Assembly (NCBI GenBank): GCA_902788555.1
Contig: CADAKQ010000010.1
Span: 1-64,000, forward strand
DNA from: an uncultured Lachnospiraceae bacterium
Lineage (GTDB): Bacteria; Bacillota; Clostridia; Lachnospirales; Lachnospiraceae
Length of the DNA: 64,000 bases
Direction: 5' to 3'
Every line of letters begins with the position of its first letter. The first letter of the stretch is position 1. The notes under the pieces are model-generated. The model had not been told where the DNA came from, did not search any database, and saw nothing but the letters and a program-made list of their open reading frames with translations. Both the position numbers and the translations under genes were made by a program. Shown piece after piece: positions 4,424 to 58,809 of the stretch.

Positions 4424-5200
4424 ATGGCAAAGAATTTATTTGATTTAACAGACAGAGTAGCAATCGTTACAGGATGCTCAACAGGACTTGGTGTACAGAT
4501 GGCAAAGGCACTTGCCAATCAGGGATGTAACATTGTCGCAGTTGCAAGACGTCAGAATCTTCTCGAAGAAGTATGTGCTGAAATAGAAAAGGACTATGGT
4601 GTAAAGACTATGGCCTGCAAATGTGATATAACTGATACCGAAGCAGTTGAGGCGGCAGTAGATGCAGTGCTTGAAAAGTTTGGTCGTATCGATATCCTTA
4701 TCAACAACGCAGGTACAGGCGCAGTAGCTCCTGCAGAGGACATCACTGACGATCAGTTATTCAATGAGTTAAATATCGACCTCGGCGGTACATTTAAGTT
4801 TGCACGTGCATGTGCTAAGAAGGCAATGATACCTGCAAAGTTCGGACGTGTTATAAACATAGCTTCAATGTATGGACTTGTAGGTAACAAGGTAGCACCT
4901 GCATCACCATATCATGCAGCAAAGGGTGGCGTTGTAAACCTTACAAGAGCACTTGCAGCAGAGTGGGGCAAGTACGGAATTACAGTTAATGCAATCTGCC
5001 CTGGATACTTCTATTCACCACTTACTAAGGAAACTCTTGACAGTGACTTCTTCCAGGCAAATGCAAAGACCATGATACCTATGGAAAGATATGGAAATGA
5101 TGGCGAGCTTGATACAACAGCAGTATTTTTAGCATCACCAACAACCACCTACGTAACAGGTGTAGCTTTACCTGTTGATGGCGGGTATACATGCATGTAA
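4424..5200 (+). CDS. Short-chain dehydrogenase/reductase, gluconate 5-dehydrogenase-like
   Basis: NAD(P)-dependent oxidoreductase of the classical SDR family, 258 residues. It shows the cofactor loop TGCSTGLG (16-23), NNAG, the catalytic Ser in NIASMYG, the YxxxK pair (YHAAK), the PGY turn and the C-terminal TGVALPVDGG. The wording of these blocks is closest to gluconate 5-dehydrogenase / KduD-type sugar-acid reductases, but substrate cannot be read from sequence. AAGGAG precedes the ATG. It is preceded by the flavodiiron gene with a 95-bp gap. Its stop codon is the first base triplet of a repeat array (5199-5516). Confidence 0.85.
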   Translation: MAKNLFDLTDRVAIVTGCSTGLGVQMAKALANQGCNIVAVARRQNLLEEVCAEIEKDYGVKTMACKCDITDTEAVEAAVDAVLEKFGRIDILINNAGTGAVAPAEDITDDQLFNELNIDLGGTFKFARACAKKAMIPAKFGRVINIASMYGLVGNKVAPASPYHAAKGGVVNLTRALAAEWGKYGITVNAICPGYFYSPLTKETLDSDFFQANAKTMIPMERYGNDGELDTTAVFLASPTTTYVTGVALPVDGGYTCM

Positions 5201-5516
5201 AGGATGCTATAGGAAAATCAAGCAGTTGCGAAGCAACTATTTGAATTTTCCTGCATCCTTTAACGAGCGAACAGCCTGCGAAAGCAGGCAGTAGAGCACC
5301 GAAGGTGCGGGTTCGCGAGTTAGGATTAAACGAAGCCGTCTGCGAAGCAGACAAGTGAGTGCCGACAGGCACGTGCTTGCGAGTTAAGATTAAAAAGCGA
5401 ACAGCCTGCATAAGCAGGCAGTAGAGCACCGAAGGTGCGGGTTCGCGAGTTAGGATTAAGCAAGCCGTCTGCGAAGCAGACAAGTGAGTGCCGAAAGGCA
5501 CGCGCTTGCGAGTTAA
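5199..5516 (+). repeat. Structured repeat array (units C-A1-B1-A2-B2)
   Basis: The stretch between the SDR gene and the next terminator is filled by five foldable units. C (5199-5261) is a long hairpin: AAAGGATGC/GCATCCTTT, then GGAAAAT/ATTTTCC, capped by AGTTGC-gaa-GCAACT. A1 (5261-5322) is TAAC, GA, GCGAAC (5267-5272), hairpin CCTGC/GCAGG, hairpin GCACC/GGTGC, GTTCGC (5311-5316), GA, GTTA. A2 (5391-5452) repeats A1. B1 (5333-5396) and B2 (5460-5516) have the same plan with different sequence: GCAAGC/GCTTGC outside, then GTCTGC/GCAGAC and GTGCC/GGCAC. A and B therefore keep the pairing while changing the bases. The order A-B-A-B suggests a tandem duplication of about 130 bp. No ORF here looks real. 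Confidence 0.85.
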
Positions 5517-5532
5517 AAGCTGGAAAACAATC

Positions 5533-5560
5533 GCCTGCTTCGGCAGGCTTTTGTTTTATA
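5533..5560 (+). terminator. Rho-independent terminator after the repeat array
   Basis: GCCTGC (5533-5538), loop TTCG, GCAGGC (5543-5548), then TTTTGTTTT. The stable UUCG-type loop and T-run make this the likely end of the SDR transcript, which would include the repeat array. Confidence 0.85.
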
Positions 5561-5645
5561 TGTAGATATTGATATTGAAAATAAGAAATGTACCTTATCC
5601 AATTAATAACTGATAATTTCTTTTGAAAGAAATAAAAATATAATA

Positions 5646-5691
5646 AAATCAAGTTATTTCACTTTGACGAAATAACTTGATTTTTCTTTTT
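5646..5691 (+). terminator. Strong hairpin with T-run upstream of the ATPase gene
   Basis: AAATCAAGTTATTTC (5646-5660) pairs perfectly with GAAATAACTTGATTT (5669-5683), followed by TTCTTTTTTTT. As it lies 45 bp before the ATPase start and 100 bp after another terminator, it could be a second terminator or an attenuator of the downstream gene. Confidence 0.6.
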
Positions 5692-5736
5692 TTTGGTATA
5701 TACTATAGGTAAATAGATTTTTTAGGGGGAATCCTT

Positions 5737-6936
5737 ATGTTAAAGCGAGAGATGTATTTGTCAAAGATAAGAGGGTTTTATGAAAGCGACCTTATAAAAA
5801 TATTGGTAGGGATTAGAAGATGTGGCAAATCAGTTATTTTGCAGCAGATTATGGATGAATTAAAGGAAAATAATGTTGATGAAGACCATATTATTTATGT
5901 TAATTTTGAATTTATTGAATTTGAAGAATTACAGGATTATAAAAAATTAAACAGGTATATAAAAGAACAAATAGTTGATAGAGCTTTATATTATGTGTTT
6001 CTTGATGAAATACAAAATGTGGATTGCTTTGAGAAAGTAGTTAATTCACTTAGGGCTTCAGTAAAAAATATAAGCATATTTATTACGGGTTCAAACGGAA
6101 AGTTGTTGTCGGAAGAATTATCAACAGTTTTATCCGGACGATACATTTCTTTTCAGATAAATCCTTTAAATTATCGTGAATATATTGAACTTACGGGTAG
6201 AGATGGAAAAAATAAAGAAACCTTTGATGATTTTGTAAAGTGGGGTGGACTTCCGAATCGTATACAATTCACAGATGAGAGTAACATTAAGGATTATCTT
6301 CATAGTGTATTTGATTCTATTATTTTGAGGGATGTTGTAAGTAGGTTAGGTCTTAAAGATACTTCCTTGTTTAATTTGATTTTACAATATATAATTGACA
6401 CTACAGGCAGAGAATTTTCTGCAAAAAATATTATTGCGTTTCTTAAATCAGAGGGAAGAGAATTATCGACTTCGACTTTATATAATTATTTAGATGCTTT
6501 ATGCAGGGCTTTAATTATAAAAAAAGTATTTCGATATGATATACATGGTAAAGCCTTATTGAAAACATTAAATAAGTATTATATGACTGATTTGGGAATT
6601 GCTCAGATTAAAAACCATAATTATAATATTAATTATTCATTTTCTCTGGAAAATCTTGTTTATAATGAATTAGTTGCAAGAGGATACGATGTATATACTG
6701 GTAAGACACCAAAGGGTGAAATTGATTTTGTTGCTGAAAAAGATGGTAACACAGTATATATTCAGGTTGCTTATATTTTAGCAGATGATAAGGTGATAGA
6801 ACGTGAATTTGGAGCTTTTAATGCTGTAAAGGATAATTTTCCTAAGTATGTTATATCGTTATCGGAAGGAGATTTTGGGGGAGCGGGAATCATTCATATA
6901 AATATGATTGATTTTCTGCTTGGCAGAGAACTGTAA
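5737..6936 (+). CDS. AAA_14/DUF4143 family ATPase
   Basis: Member of the large family of archaeal/bacterial P-loop ATPases with a C-terminal DUF4143 domain; role in the cell unknown. The 399-residue protein has a Walker A GIRRCGKS (25-32), Walker B VFLDEIQ (Asp90-Glu91), a sensor-like ITGSN, a winged-helix-like middle (sequence around STSTLYNYLDAL) and a C-terminal GEIDFVA motif with the PD-(D/E)xK nuclease-like look of the family. AGGGGGA lies 10 bp upstream of the ATG. The gene is more AT-rich than its neighbours and such genes are often scattered by transfer. It is 16 bp before the PF06541 gene and may be cotranscribed. Confidence 0.85.
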   Translation: MLKREMYLSKIRGFYESDLIKILVGIRRCGKSVILQQIMDELKENNVDEDHIIYVNFEFIEFEELQDYKKLNRYIKEQIVDRALYYVFLDEIQNVDCFEKVVNSLRASVKNISIFITGSNGKLLSEELSTVLSGRYISFQINPLNYREYIELTGRDGKNKETFDDFVKWGGLPNRIQFTDESNIKDYLHSVFDSIILRDVVSRLGLKDTSLFNLILQYIIDTTGREFSAKNIIAFLKSEGRELSTSTLYNYLDALCRALIIKKVFRYDIHGKALLKTLNKYYMTDLGIAQIKNHNYNINYSFSLENLVYNELVARGYDVYTGKTPKGEIDFVAEKDGNTVYIQVAYILADDKVIEREFGAFNAVKDNFPKYVISLSEGDFGGAGIIHINMIDFLLGREL

Positions 6937-44332: not shown

Positions 44333-44348
44333 AAATATAATTTAATAA

Positions 44349-44455
44349 ATCTTCAGGGCAGGGTGCAATTCCCGACCGGCGGTACAGCCCGCGAGCCGAA
44401 AGGTTGATTTGGTGGAAGTCCAAAGCCGACAGTAAAGTCTGGATGGAAGAAGAAT
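44349..44455 (+). ncRNA. FMN riboswitch (RFN element)
   Basis: The conserved blocks appear in order: TCTTCAGGGCAGGGTG, AATTCCCGACCGGCGGT, GCCCGCGAGC, GGTGGAAGTCC, AAAGCCGACAGT and AGTCTGGATGGAAGAAGA. These form the six-helix junction that binds FMN. A hairpin (TAATGCA/TGCATTA, 44456-44482) follows and then a terminator, so FMN should stop transcription before ribD. Confidence 0.96.
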
Positions 44456-44491
44456 TAATGCATATATTTTGTTGTGCATTATTATGATTTA

Positions 44492-57138: not shown

Positions 57139-58542
57139 TTAGTTTGTTCCTCTCAGTTCTATAATCGGTGAGCCCTTGCCGTTTATGTAATCGCCGGTTA
57201 TGGTAACAGTTCCGATAGAATCATCTCTTGGAATTTCATACATTATATCCAGCATAAATTTTTCGATTATTGCACGAAGAGCTCTGGCACCGGTTTTCTT
57301 TTCCATAGCCTTTTCGGCAATTGCCTCGTAAGCGGAATCATCAAATTGAAGATTAACCTCATCCAAAGCAAGCAGCTTTTGGTACTGCTTTAAGATTGCA
57401 TTTTTCGGCTCCTTTAAAATCTTGATATACATATCCTTATCAAGGGCATCAAGTGTAAATATAACAGGCAGTCTTCCCAAAAATTCAGGTATCATTCCGA
57501 AGTCTCTTAAGTCATCCACGGTGACTTCCTTCATAAGATTAGGTTCATCGTCAAATCTGTCTTTGAGGTCGGCATTGAAGCCCATGGAGGACTGCTTGGT
57601 AAGTCTTTCCTTAATTATATCTTCAATATCAGGAAATGCTCCGCCACATATAAATAAAATGTTTTGGGTATTCATGGTTGTCATCGGTGTCATGGCATTT
57701 TTACTTCCCGAACCGACAGGTACCTCAACCTCAGCACCCTCAATTATTTTAAGAAGTCCCTGCTGAACTGACTCACCGCTTACATCACGGCTCCTGGTTT
57801 CCTTCTTTTTTGCAATCTTGTCTATCTCGTCTATAAATACGATTCCGCGTTCTGCCTTTTCAACATCATTGTCGGCAACTGCAAGAAGCTTTGAAAGAAT
57901 ACTCTCTACGTCATCACCTATGTAACCCGCCTCTGTAAGAGAGGTTGCATCCGTTATGGCAAGAGGCACATTTAAAAGTCTTGCAATGGTTTTCACAAGA
58001 TAGGTCTTACCGCAGCCTGTAGGACCGAGCATGAGCATATTGGATTTTTCTATTTCGATATCATCCATAGTGTTGGTGATAACTCTCTTGTAGTGGTTAT
58101 AGACCGCAACCGAAATAGCCTTTTTGGCATATTCCTGTCCAACCACATACTCATCAAGCATAGCCTTGATTTTATGAGGGGCAGGAATATTTTCCAATGT
58201 AAGAGGAGCTTCCTCTTCCTTTTCCTCTTTTTTCTTTTTCTTTTTTACCTTCTGGGATTTTGGAATATCATCAAATGGCATAAACTGCGACATATTGATA
58301 TTCGGCATATGAGATAAATCTATAAACTGCATCTGGCTGCCGTTAAAGGCATCAAAGCTTTTCTGCATACAGTCATTGCAGATGTGCATGTTACCCGGAA
58401 GCGTGATGAAAGGACCGGCTGTAGATTCCGGTCTTCTGCACAGATAGCAGTAGGTTTCATATTCATCATTATTTTTATCGTTATCTTTTTTTTCTTTTGT
58501 ATCTTCGTCTTTGGTTTCCATATCGTCGATATTGTTAGCCAT
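57139..58542 (-). CDS. clpX: ATP-dependent Clp protease ATP-binding subunit ClpX
   Basis: Unfoldase for ClpP. 467 residues with a C4 zinc finger (C32, C35, C55, C58), Walker A GPTGCGKT, Walker B FIDEID, the pore loop GYIGDD and the ClpP-docking loop SSMGF, in place of the usual IGF. A Lys/Glu-rich linker (KKKKKKEEKEEE) follows the zinc finger and is longer than usual. The family C-terminal lid is complete. GGAGGAAA precedes the ATG. clpP and tig are not adjacent, so this may be a separate or second clpX. Confidence 0.9.
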   Translation of the reverse strand: MANNIDDMETKDEDTKEKKDNDKNNDEYETYCYLCRRPESTAGPFITLPGNMHICNDCMQKSFDAFNGSQMQFIDLSHMPNINMSQFMPFDDIPKSQKVKKKKKKEEKEEEAPLTLENIPAPHKIKAMLDEYVVGQEYAKKAISVAVYNHYKRVITNTMDDIEIEKSNMLMLGPTGCGKTYLVKTIARLLNVPLAITDATSLTEAGYIGDDVESILSKLLAVADNDVEKAERGIVFIDEIDKIAKKKETRSRDVSGESVQQGLLKIIEGAEVEVPVGSGSKNAMTPMTTMNTQNILFICGGAFPDIEDIIKERLTKQSSMGFNADLKDRFDDEPNLMKEVTVDDLRDFGMIPEFLGRLPVIFTLDALDKDMYIKILKEPKNAILKQYQKLLALDEVNLQFDDSAYEAIAEKAMEKKTGARALRAIIEKFMLDIMYEIPRDDSIGTVTITGDYINGKGSPIIELRGTN

Positions 58543-58617: not shown

Positions 58618-58744
58618 ATTATCTCGCAAGCACGCATCTTCGATGCTCGCTCATCTGCTTCGCAGATGGCTTGCTCGATAATAATCCGCGAAAAATTCAA
58701 ATGTCGACTTCGTCGCCGCTTGATTTTTCGCTAGTGATTATTAT
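58618..58744 (-). repeat. Structured repeat locus, second copy, reverse strand
   Basis: Read on the minus strand, a long hairpin unit C (58678-58744) has local arms ATAATAATC/GATTATTAT, GCGAAAAAT/ATTTTTCGC and CGAC/GTCG, matching unit C at 5.2 kb. It overlaps a three-way unit (58618-58682) with the plan of units A/B: ATTATC, GA, GCAAGC, hairpin CATCTGC/GCAGATG, hairpin GCATC/GATGC, GCTTGC, GA, GATAAT. A truncated copy of its 3' half lies at 58582-58617. It sits ~75 bp upstream of clpX in the same sense. Confidence 0.8.
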
Positions 58745-58809
58745 TATACCACTATTTCTTATTAGTGCAAATGGAAATGAAAGGTTGCTGTCCGCAGATA
58801 AAGTGCGGT

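Follow-up and report, generated by a model that had tools for sequence, protein, structure and literature searches.

The BOX element of Streptococcus pneumoniae is built from modules in the order boxA-boxBn-boxC, and 36 of the 58 overlaps between BOX and coding sequences are reported to lie at the 3' end of the gene, with BOX supplying the stop codon (PMC3049150). For E. coli, 446 of the 4,072 predicted REP elements are reported to lie within 15 nt of a stop codon, and REP elements at this distance are reported to stall ribosomes (PMC12306157). Stem-loops near stop codons have also been reported in low-GC Firmicutes (PMC1590033). The Clostridiales-1 motif (RF01699), which occurs in Lachnospiraceae, was described by Weinberg et al. 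(2010) as probably an RNA and probably not cis-regulatory (PMC2864571).

The feature studied here lies in a window of 64,000 nucleotides from an uncultured Lachnospiraceae bacterium, behind a gene for a short-chain dehydrogenase/reductase (SDR). It consists of a long hairpin, E1, followed by one or more copies of a branched domain, E2. At somewhat better than even odds, it is one copy of a modular palindromic interspersed DNA repeat family of Lachnospiraceae. Its closest working analogue is BOX of pneumococcus, compared here by description: both are modular, hairpin-forming and interspersed and have a tandemly variable middle module, whereas E1–E2 is polar, has no TIRs seen and places E1 at a -10 box or a stop codon. 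TIRs were looked for by inspection, as the mark of a MITE. REP and BIME elements resemble E1–E2 as small palindromes in spacers, some of them near stop codons. Unlike these, E1–E2 has a larger, branched plan and no PF01797 transposase in its own genome. A RAYT/IS200-like transposase was considered as mobiliser and rejected, PF01797 being present in 7 of 30 genomes (several of them incomplete) and absent from the genome of the window. A RAYT-driven REP is therefore unlikely. REP/RAYT palindromes of 20-40 nt carry a GTAG or CGTC tag at their foot; in the A units of the window, GTAG precedes hairpin 2.

The array behind the SDR gene and the copy at 58.6 kb

The SDR gene is an ORF at 4424..5200 (+) with a PF13561 match (E 9.4e-58). 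Its TAA stop codon (5198-5200, +), which is paired in the DNA fold, forms the foot on which the E1 stem begins. E1 (5198..5262, +) matches R2, the covariance model of E1, at 5202-5262 and folds into a stem TAAAGGATGC.../...GCATCCTTTA with CAAGC-hairpin-ATTTG and the loop GCGAAGC; it contains an A-run, a hairpin and a T-run. The sequence-only reading, which described the repeated units directly 3' of it, overlooked this partner hairpin.

Four tandem E2 units follow on the plus strand: A1 (5260..5322), B1 (5326..5386), A2 (5390..5452) and B2 (5454..5515). All four fold and are matched by R1, a covariance model built from 26 E2 copies. A1, which is also supported by covariation, comprises an outer stem, a tandem GA, an inner stem and two hairpins. 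A2 lies 130 nt after A1, with 94% identity over 70 nt. The idea that the A-B-A-B array (about 5260-5518) arose by duplication of a two-part unit was borne out by two repeat pairs, 5260-5329 / 5390-5459 (94%) and 5333-5419 / 5462-5548 (82%), and by the spacing of the A-B pairs of 129-130 nt. A1 folds as had been claimed (-31.6 kcal/mol, z -6.3, equalled by 0 of 200 shuffles), and so does A2 without the GA step (-27.0 kcal/mol, z -5.1, 0 of 200 shuffles as good). The B units had been said to follow the same plan. This holds for B2, whose centroid structure contains all three stems, GCAAGC/GCTTGC enclosing GTCTGC/GCAGAC and GTGCC/GGCAC (z -3.4), and not for B1, in which the 5' arm reads CGAAGC, so that the inner stem lacks its two outer pairs (C.C, G.G) and the best fold differs (z -2.8). 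Likewise, the GA/GA closure is complete in A1 and is not found in full in the other three array units; in relatives the fold is well supported. The units described earlier are thus real, with B1 and the GA closure differing from the description.

A hairpin with a T-run resembling an intrinsic terminator, found as an inverted repeat and in a pattern scan, stands 3' of the array (5524..5557, +). Farther on, a long AT-rich inverted repeat (5635-5694; 26 nt arms, 85%) precedes an AAA/DUF4143 gene and has a terminator-like score on both strands. At three loci (L004, L005, L006), a truncated A unit consisting of the first hairpin and a T-run lies behind the SDR gene and looks as if it had turned into an operon terminator.

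The unit at 58.6 kb is also an E1–E2 element of the minus strand, flanked by a TATAAT and by a gene that we take to be ClpX-like; this plan had been missed. The TATAAT is read in the sequence directly upstream of the copy (58743..58748, -), and the DNA fold includes two of its bases in the E1 stem. E1 follows at 58679..58739 (-; R2 match) and E2 at 58620..58680 (-; R1 match), in the leader of the ClpX-like gene (ATG at 58542).

Fold, covariation and distribution of E1–E2

The fold of E2 was examined in the alignment of 26 copies. Pairing is kept in 95.8% of 542 cells, and 11 of the 21 pairs show both-sided changes. The number of both-sided cells was 71, as compared with 20.2 ± 4.3 in shuffles, and the covariation score was 0.385 vs 0.161. 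The pair-type count, one of five covariation measures, was not above the shuffles (23 vs 23.0). Four pairs lie outside the GA step, of which one shows clear covariation (A-U 11, U-A 8) and three show hardly any; RNAalifold alone did not predict the outer pairs beyond the GA step. The earlier observation that pairing is preserved while the sequence changes was therefore confirmed, and the covariation persists in this larger alignment. As to the claim that such compensation is the mark of selection, compensation exceeds chance, but it is no proof of selection by itself, since template switching is reported to create and maintain stems (PMC8794818).

R1 detected E2 in 14 of the 37 genomes of the genus (E<=0.01), with 1-7 matches per positive genome, and in at least 50 of 397 genomes and at least 42 of 334 genera of the family (E<=1e-4). 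The family-wide counts, with up to 13 candidates scored per genome, are lower bounds. Further copies in related genomes had been expected, and these results bear the expectation out. E1 was detected by R2 in 12 of the 37 genus genomes (E<=0.001). E2 lies directly 3' of E1 in at least 66 of the 79 distinct E1 copies; conversely, among 121 distinct E2 copies, 66 lie directly behind E1 and 16 behind another E2, the remaining 39 including copies of Type II (see below). One to four E2 units follow E1, a modular build with a tandemly variable module as in BOX. A strict pattern scan of named genomes returned 12 stretches from MAGs labelled Lachnospiraceae, Clostridia, Bacillota and Acetatifactor, some of them from the rumen. 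The E1–E2 plan is thus real, covarying and wider than first reported. No BLAST match to 5199-5520 was obtained in phages or plasmids, and no viral contig was found with one strict IUPAC pattern of the element, which is weak evidence. In a limited survey of the open-access literature on Lachnospiraceae repeats, MITEs and RF01699, the family was not recognised. In genome G011, three loci (L079, L088, L096; around 1460-1620) carry E1-like hairpins, CCAAGC-hairpin-CATTTGG, directly behind TATAAT, with a different second hairpin (ACCATAAT/ATTATGGT); these are possibly a sister family.

Corresponding sites were compared between genomes, G000 being that of the window. By inspection, the clpX leader contains E1–E2 in G000 and G023; in G022 its E1 has decayed, in G008 and G024 the 5' arm of E1 alone is present, and in G004 and G014 the promoter aligns and there is no element. 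The SDR gene of G026 and one of the two in G004 end in other terminator-like hairpins without the element (inspection). It should be noted that G024 is cut at a contig end at this site, and that the element-free SDR copy of G004 could be foreign, since this genome is 84% complete with 6% contamination. The metA leader has the element in G251 and lacks it in G470 of the same genus, whose leader also differs elsewhere.

At the SDR site, seven genomes have six different E1 stem sequences, each of them complementary. Between G000 and G023 the coding sequence is 94.7% identical and the 5' arm of E1 58%, with the 3' arm following; between G023 and G004 the values are 82.6% for the coding sequence and 95% for the 5' arm. 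In neither comparison does the change resemble slow compensation in single steps; conversion between copies, replacement or template switching would explain it better, the last being a candidate process on the published description (PMC8794818). The pair G000 and G008, with 94.2% in the coding sequence and 100% in the E1 arms, shows that the arms can stay put and that wholesale change is not the rule. The second SDR gene of G004 (L101) has at its 3' end a terminator-like hairpin ATGTAAAG.../...CTTTACAT. The 3' arm of this hairpin is the reverse complement of the last codon and stop of the gene, an extension of the palindrome into the coding sequence.

Seat of E1 at promoters and stop codons

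An exact TATAAT starts within 12 nt upstream of E1 in 38 of the 79 distinct copies, and the stop codon of a long upstream ORF lies at E1 in 27. Either is present in 62 copies, or in 67 when one mismatch in TATAAT is allowed. At 1,444 other positions in the same loci, the corresponding frequencies were 1.0% for TATAAT, 12.4% for the hexamer with one mismatch and 2.4% for stops. Random positions were rejected as the only control for the stop-codon seat and replaced by other hairpins of the fetched loci (526 directions), which gave TATAAT in 8 (1.5%), a stop in 42 (8.0% rather than 2.4%) and either in 49. At the opposite end of the element, TATAAT was found in 0 of 66 copies and a stop in 1 of 66. 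Seventeen copies fail both exact tests; several of these are second copies in tandem (e.g. L010, L035, L111, L145, L146, L172), and in four the hexamer has one mismatch (L010, L014, L020, L049).

A neighbour gene was found for 59 of the 62 seated copies, giving 47 different genes that look unrelated by eye; from their sequences we take them to include cmk, metA, deoB, glyA, pheS, groEL, grpE and gltD. For 35 of the 38 promoter copies a gene was found downstream on the same strand (33 distinct genes), and for 24 stop copies an upstream gene (14 distinct genes). The copies are not all independent, since the SDR site supplies seven. Comparison of the SDR genes indicates that the stop at this site is the native gene end, and the same appears to hold for the cases presumed to be groEL-like and pheS-like. 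Plain targeting of the letters TAA was rejected, as it fails for the stop codons TAG and TGA. E1 shares with intrinsic terminators the order A-run, hairpin, T-run, and a terminator-like hairpin lies behind the window array. Unlike terminators, E1 stands directly behind TATAAT in the 38 promoter copies, 35 of them with the same-strand gene downstream, a place at which complete termination would be expected to do harm. Since stem-loops near stops are reported in low-GC Firmicutes (PMC1590033), a seat at stop codons is less of a surprise than one at promoters.

Of 65 copies, 20 have the sequence of the left end once more immediately after the element at p<=0.005, and 24 at p<=0.05 (base shuffles). 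It often represents a partial second E1, in some cases with a second TGATATAAT. TATAAT was found within 120 nt behind the element in 14 of 65 copies vs 47 of 527 control windows. As the copies usually start exactly at a stop codon or just behind a -10 box, they form an untranslated part of the host message. What surprises most is how exactly E1 sits on -10 boxes and stop codons, for which none of the tests made here offered an explanation.

The promoter copies were folded with DNA parameters from the -10 onward. Transcription as a rule starts about 7 nt behind the -10, and this distance was assumed for +1. At least four of the six nucleotides between the -10 and the expected +1 pair with the 3' arm of E1 in 31 of 38 copies, and at least two nucleotides of the TATAAT hexamer pair into the E1 stem in 17 of 38; with the assumed +1, the RNA of a promoter copy would have its 5' end within the E1 stem. 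Among the 27 stop-type copies, the DNA fold pairs all three bases of the stop in 12, part of them in 2 and none in 13, the fully paired stops being TAA-TTA (7), TAG-CTA (4) and TGA-TCA (1). The loops of the first and second E2 hairpin are GNA triloops in 89 and 93 of 119 cases, GNNA in 21 and 14, and UNCG in 0. In DNA, loops of the types cGNAg and cGNNAg have an unusual stability. The rarity of G.U pairs was given up as proof of a DNA fold: the FMN riboswitch of the same genus, used as control (28 distinct sequences), is also G.U-poor (10 of 756 cells, 1.3%), and E2 has 0.5-1.7% (genus-centred set) or 1.1-2.4% (wide set). The ratio of both-sided to one-sided cells was 40:10 in this riboswitch; in E2 it was 71:9 with all 21 pairs counted and 61:2 for the 17 inner ones. 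The sequence-only reading had left the choice between a folded RNA and a cruciform open. The evidence leans to a DNA palindrome that is also transcribed, because the stems enter promoter DNA that is expected to stay outside the transcript, GNA triloops dominate and the stem at the SDR site changed far more than the gene; both levels may matter.

In a possible, tentatively held alternative, E1–E2 is an RNA-level UTR element under selection. E1 would pair the 5' end of the message or the segment after the stop, E2 would form a compact domain, and the two would shield ribosome-free RNA from nucleases or tune translation, termination or operon balance. The copies lie on the gene's strand in predicted UTRs, the element persists at the corresponding site behind SDR in seven genomes, its fold covaries strongly, and there are intercistronic cases, including one between genes that we take to be grpE and dnaK. 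The reported stalling of ribosomes by REPs within 15 nt of a stop points the same way (PMC12306157). However, the stem of promoter copies has its outermost pairs upstream of the expected (assumed) +1, GNA triloops rather than GNRA tetraloops dominate, the neighbour genes look unrelated, and the element is missing at the same gene in related genomes.

A more doubtful proposal is that a mobile palindrome takes the host site as its own stem foot. E1 would be founded exactly on the stop or the TAAT of the -10, and its 3' arm would end in the reverse complement (TTA, CTA, TCA, ATTA). This would come about by fold-back copying or by target-complementary guidance where transcription exposes the DNA. 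If this is true, such a palindrome would write itself into the starts of UTRs without harm to the gene or promoter.

Clostridiales-1 and the explanations weighed

At the gathering score, an Rfam scan of the window returned the FMN riboswitch only and no RF01699; this riboswitch (RF00050) lies at 44345-44458 (+) and scores 119.4 bits. With permissive settings, 14 matches were obtained in 4900-5900, all of them well under the family cut-offs, and no RF01699 up to E 10; the window copy thus stays below the 48 bits required for RF01699 membership. In its turn, R1 gave three matches up to E 10 on 30 strong RF01699 loci, the best at E 0.09, which does not amount to recognition. The genome of the window has one RF01699 match (E 3.5e-8), and none reaches the cut-off within the window. 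Inspection showed that the GA-closed middle domain ATGAGCA...TGCGAAT is common to RF01699 and E2.

The two are bridged by Type II elements, which are 152-167 nt long and have a TIR (AGTTCA/TGAACT) and a long hairpin, whose loop is mostly of the TGCTTGCA type, followed by E2. A full-length match to RF01699 (1-166) was obtained in 7 of 11 Type II loci scanned (E 2.5e-6 to 0.0095), the best score of 43.6 bits being under the 48-bit cut-off, and no match in the six Type I loci scanned. The TIR copies show no visible target duplication by inspection. Only one Type II copy met the script pattern in the position test, which is uninformative for the Type II seat. In nine Type II loci (L148, L152, L162, L164, L165, L174, L177, L179, L199), the flanks extend the palindrome (GTAAC...GTTAC, CTAAAC...GTTTAG). 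Six listed Type II copies in G304 score identically, which suggests recent spread.

Clostridiales-1 thus resembles E1–E2 in its GA-closed domain and its host family, Lachnospiraceae, and has many copies per genome. It differs from the window element in lacking E1, in having one hairpin in the closed domain where E2 has two, in its first hairpin and in a third domain. E1–E2 shares its E2 domain with TIR-bearing relatives of Clostridiales-1 and is not a member itself. The earlier statement that the fold belongs to no named RNA class accordingly stands for the window copy and needs qualifying for the E2 domain; a match to a known class was found only in distant relatives, the Type II copies, under the RF01699 cut-off.

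It is improbable that E1–E2 is a trans-acting small RNA class branching from Clostridiales-1, which Rfam types as an sRNA gene. The full-length matches of E2-containing Type II loci and the common GA-closed domain speak for such a descent. Against it, the window copy and the six Type I loci have no RF01699 match, R1 finds nothing convincing in strong RF01699 loci, and RF01699 itself looks like an interspersed repeat. RF01699 exceeds its cut-off in 129 of 299 family genomes, many of them with 9 of 9 scored candidates matching, and therefore behaves like a repeat of this kind, an abundance that sits badly with the sRNA gene label. Among 26 RF01699 loci tested (from L206-L235), 3 lie at TATAAT and 6 at a stop, the same tendency in weak form.

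Least probable is the view that there is no element, only ordinary terminators and leaders whose palindromes were lengthened and homogenised by purely mutational template switching: the plain terminator-like hairpin of L101 with its 3' arm repeating the end of the coding sequence, the reported capacity of template switching to create and maintain stems (PMC8794818) and the commonness of hairpins near stop codons favour it, but parts that go beyond a plain palindrome (CAAGC/ATTTG, tandem GA, E1 then E2) recur at 47 neighbour genes, other hairpins seldom sit behind TATAAT (8 of 526), and the shared E1–E2 consensus already makes it unlikely.

We therefore prefer, at a probability of about 0.55, the reading as a palindromic, non-autonomous DNA repeat similar to BOX, which turns into a structured UTR. 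At the sequence level, the family combines the E1–E2 plan, covariation, presence or absence at corresponding sites, tandem expansion and a fixed seat of E1 at a -10-like hexamer or a stop codon, on the gene's strand. The many unrelated sites, empty sites, fixed seat, DNA-level pairing, loops, arm change and recurrence of the left end argue for this reading. On the other side, no transposition was seen, no autonomous partner found and no target duplication proven; the genus has few copies, some shared by descent (SDR in seven genomes), and hairpins often lie close to stop codons in any case (42 of 526 directions in the control). A selfish element is not obviously drawn to -10 boxes and stops, so a function tied to the starts of UTRs may retain it. 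The earlier interpretation is partly supported: kept pairing and duplication stand, compensation alone does not prove selection, and the class status stands for the window copy.

For the DNA repeat we infer both mobility and an effect on expression. E1–E2 would spread as a non-autonomous element, much as BOX and REP, and its hairpins would arise where the DNA is single-stranded. The arms would stay complementary through template switching or conversion between copies, processes that would also make many of the 'compensatory' changes. Once inserted, the element would give the message a highly structured segment, as a 5' leader, between cistrons or in the 3' region, would be tolerated because the -10 and the protein remain unchanged, and would probably tune message stability or termination.

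Because part of the covarying stem is probably not transcribed, E1–E2 is a test case for telling selection on an RNA fold from mutation that keeps palindromes. Its sites form a natural series for measuring what a structured UTR does. On the preferred reading, the border of the repeat would be the start of a UTR, which would link mobile DNA to message structure in a large family of gut bacteria.
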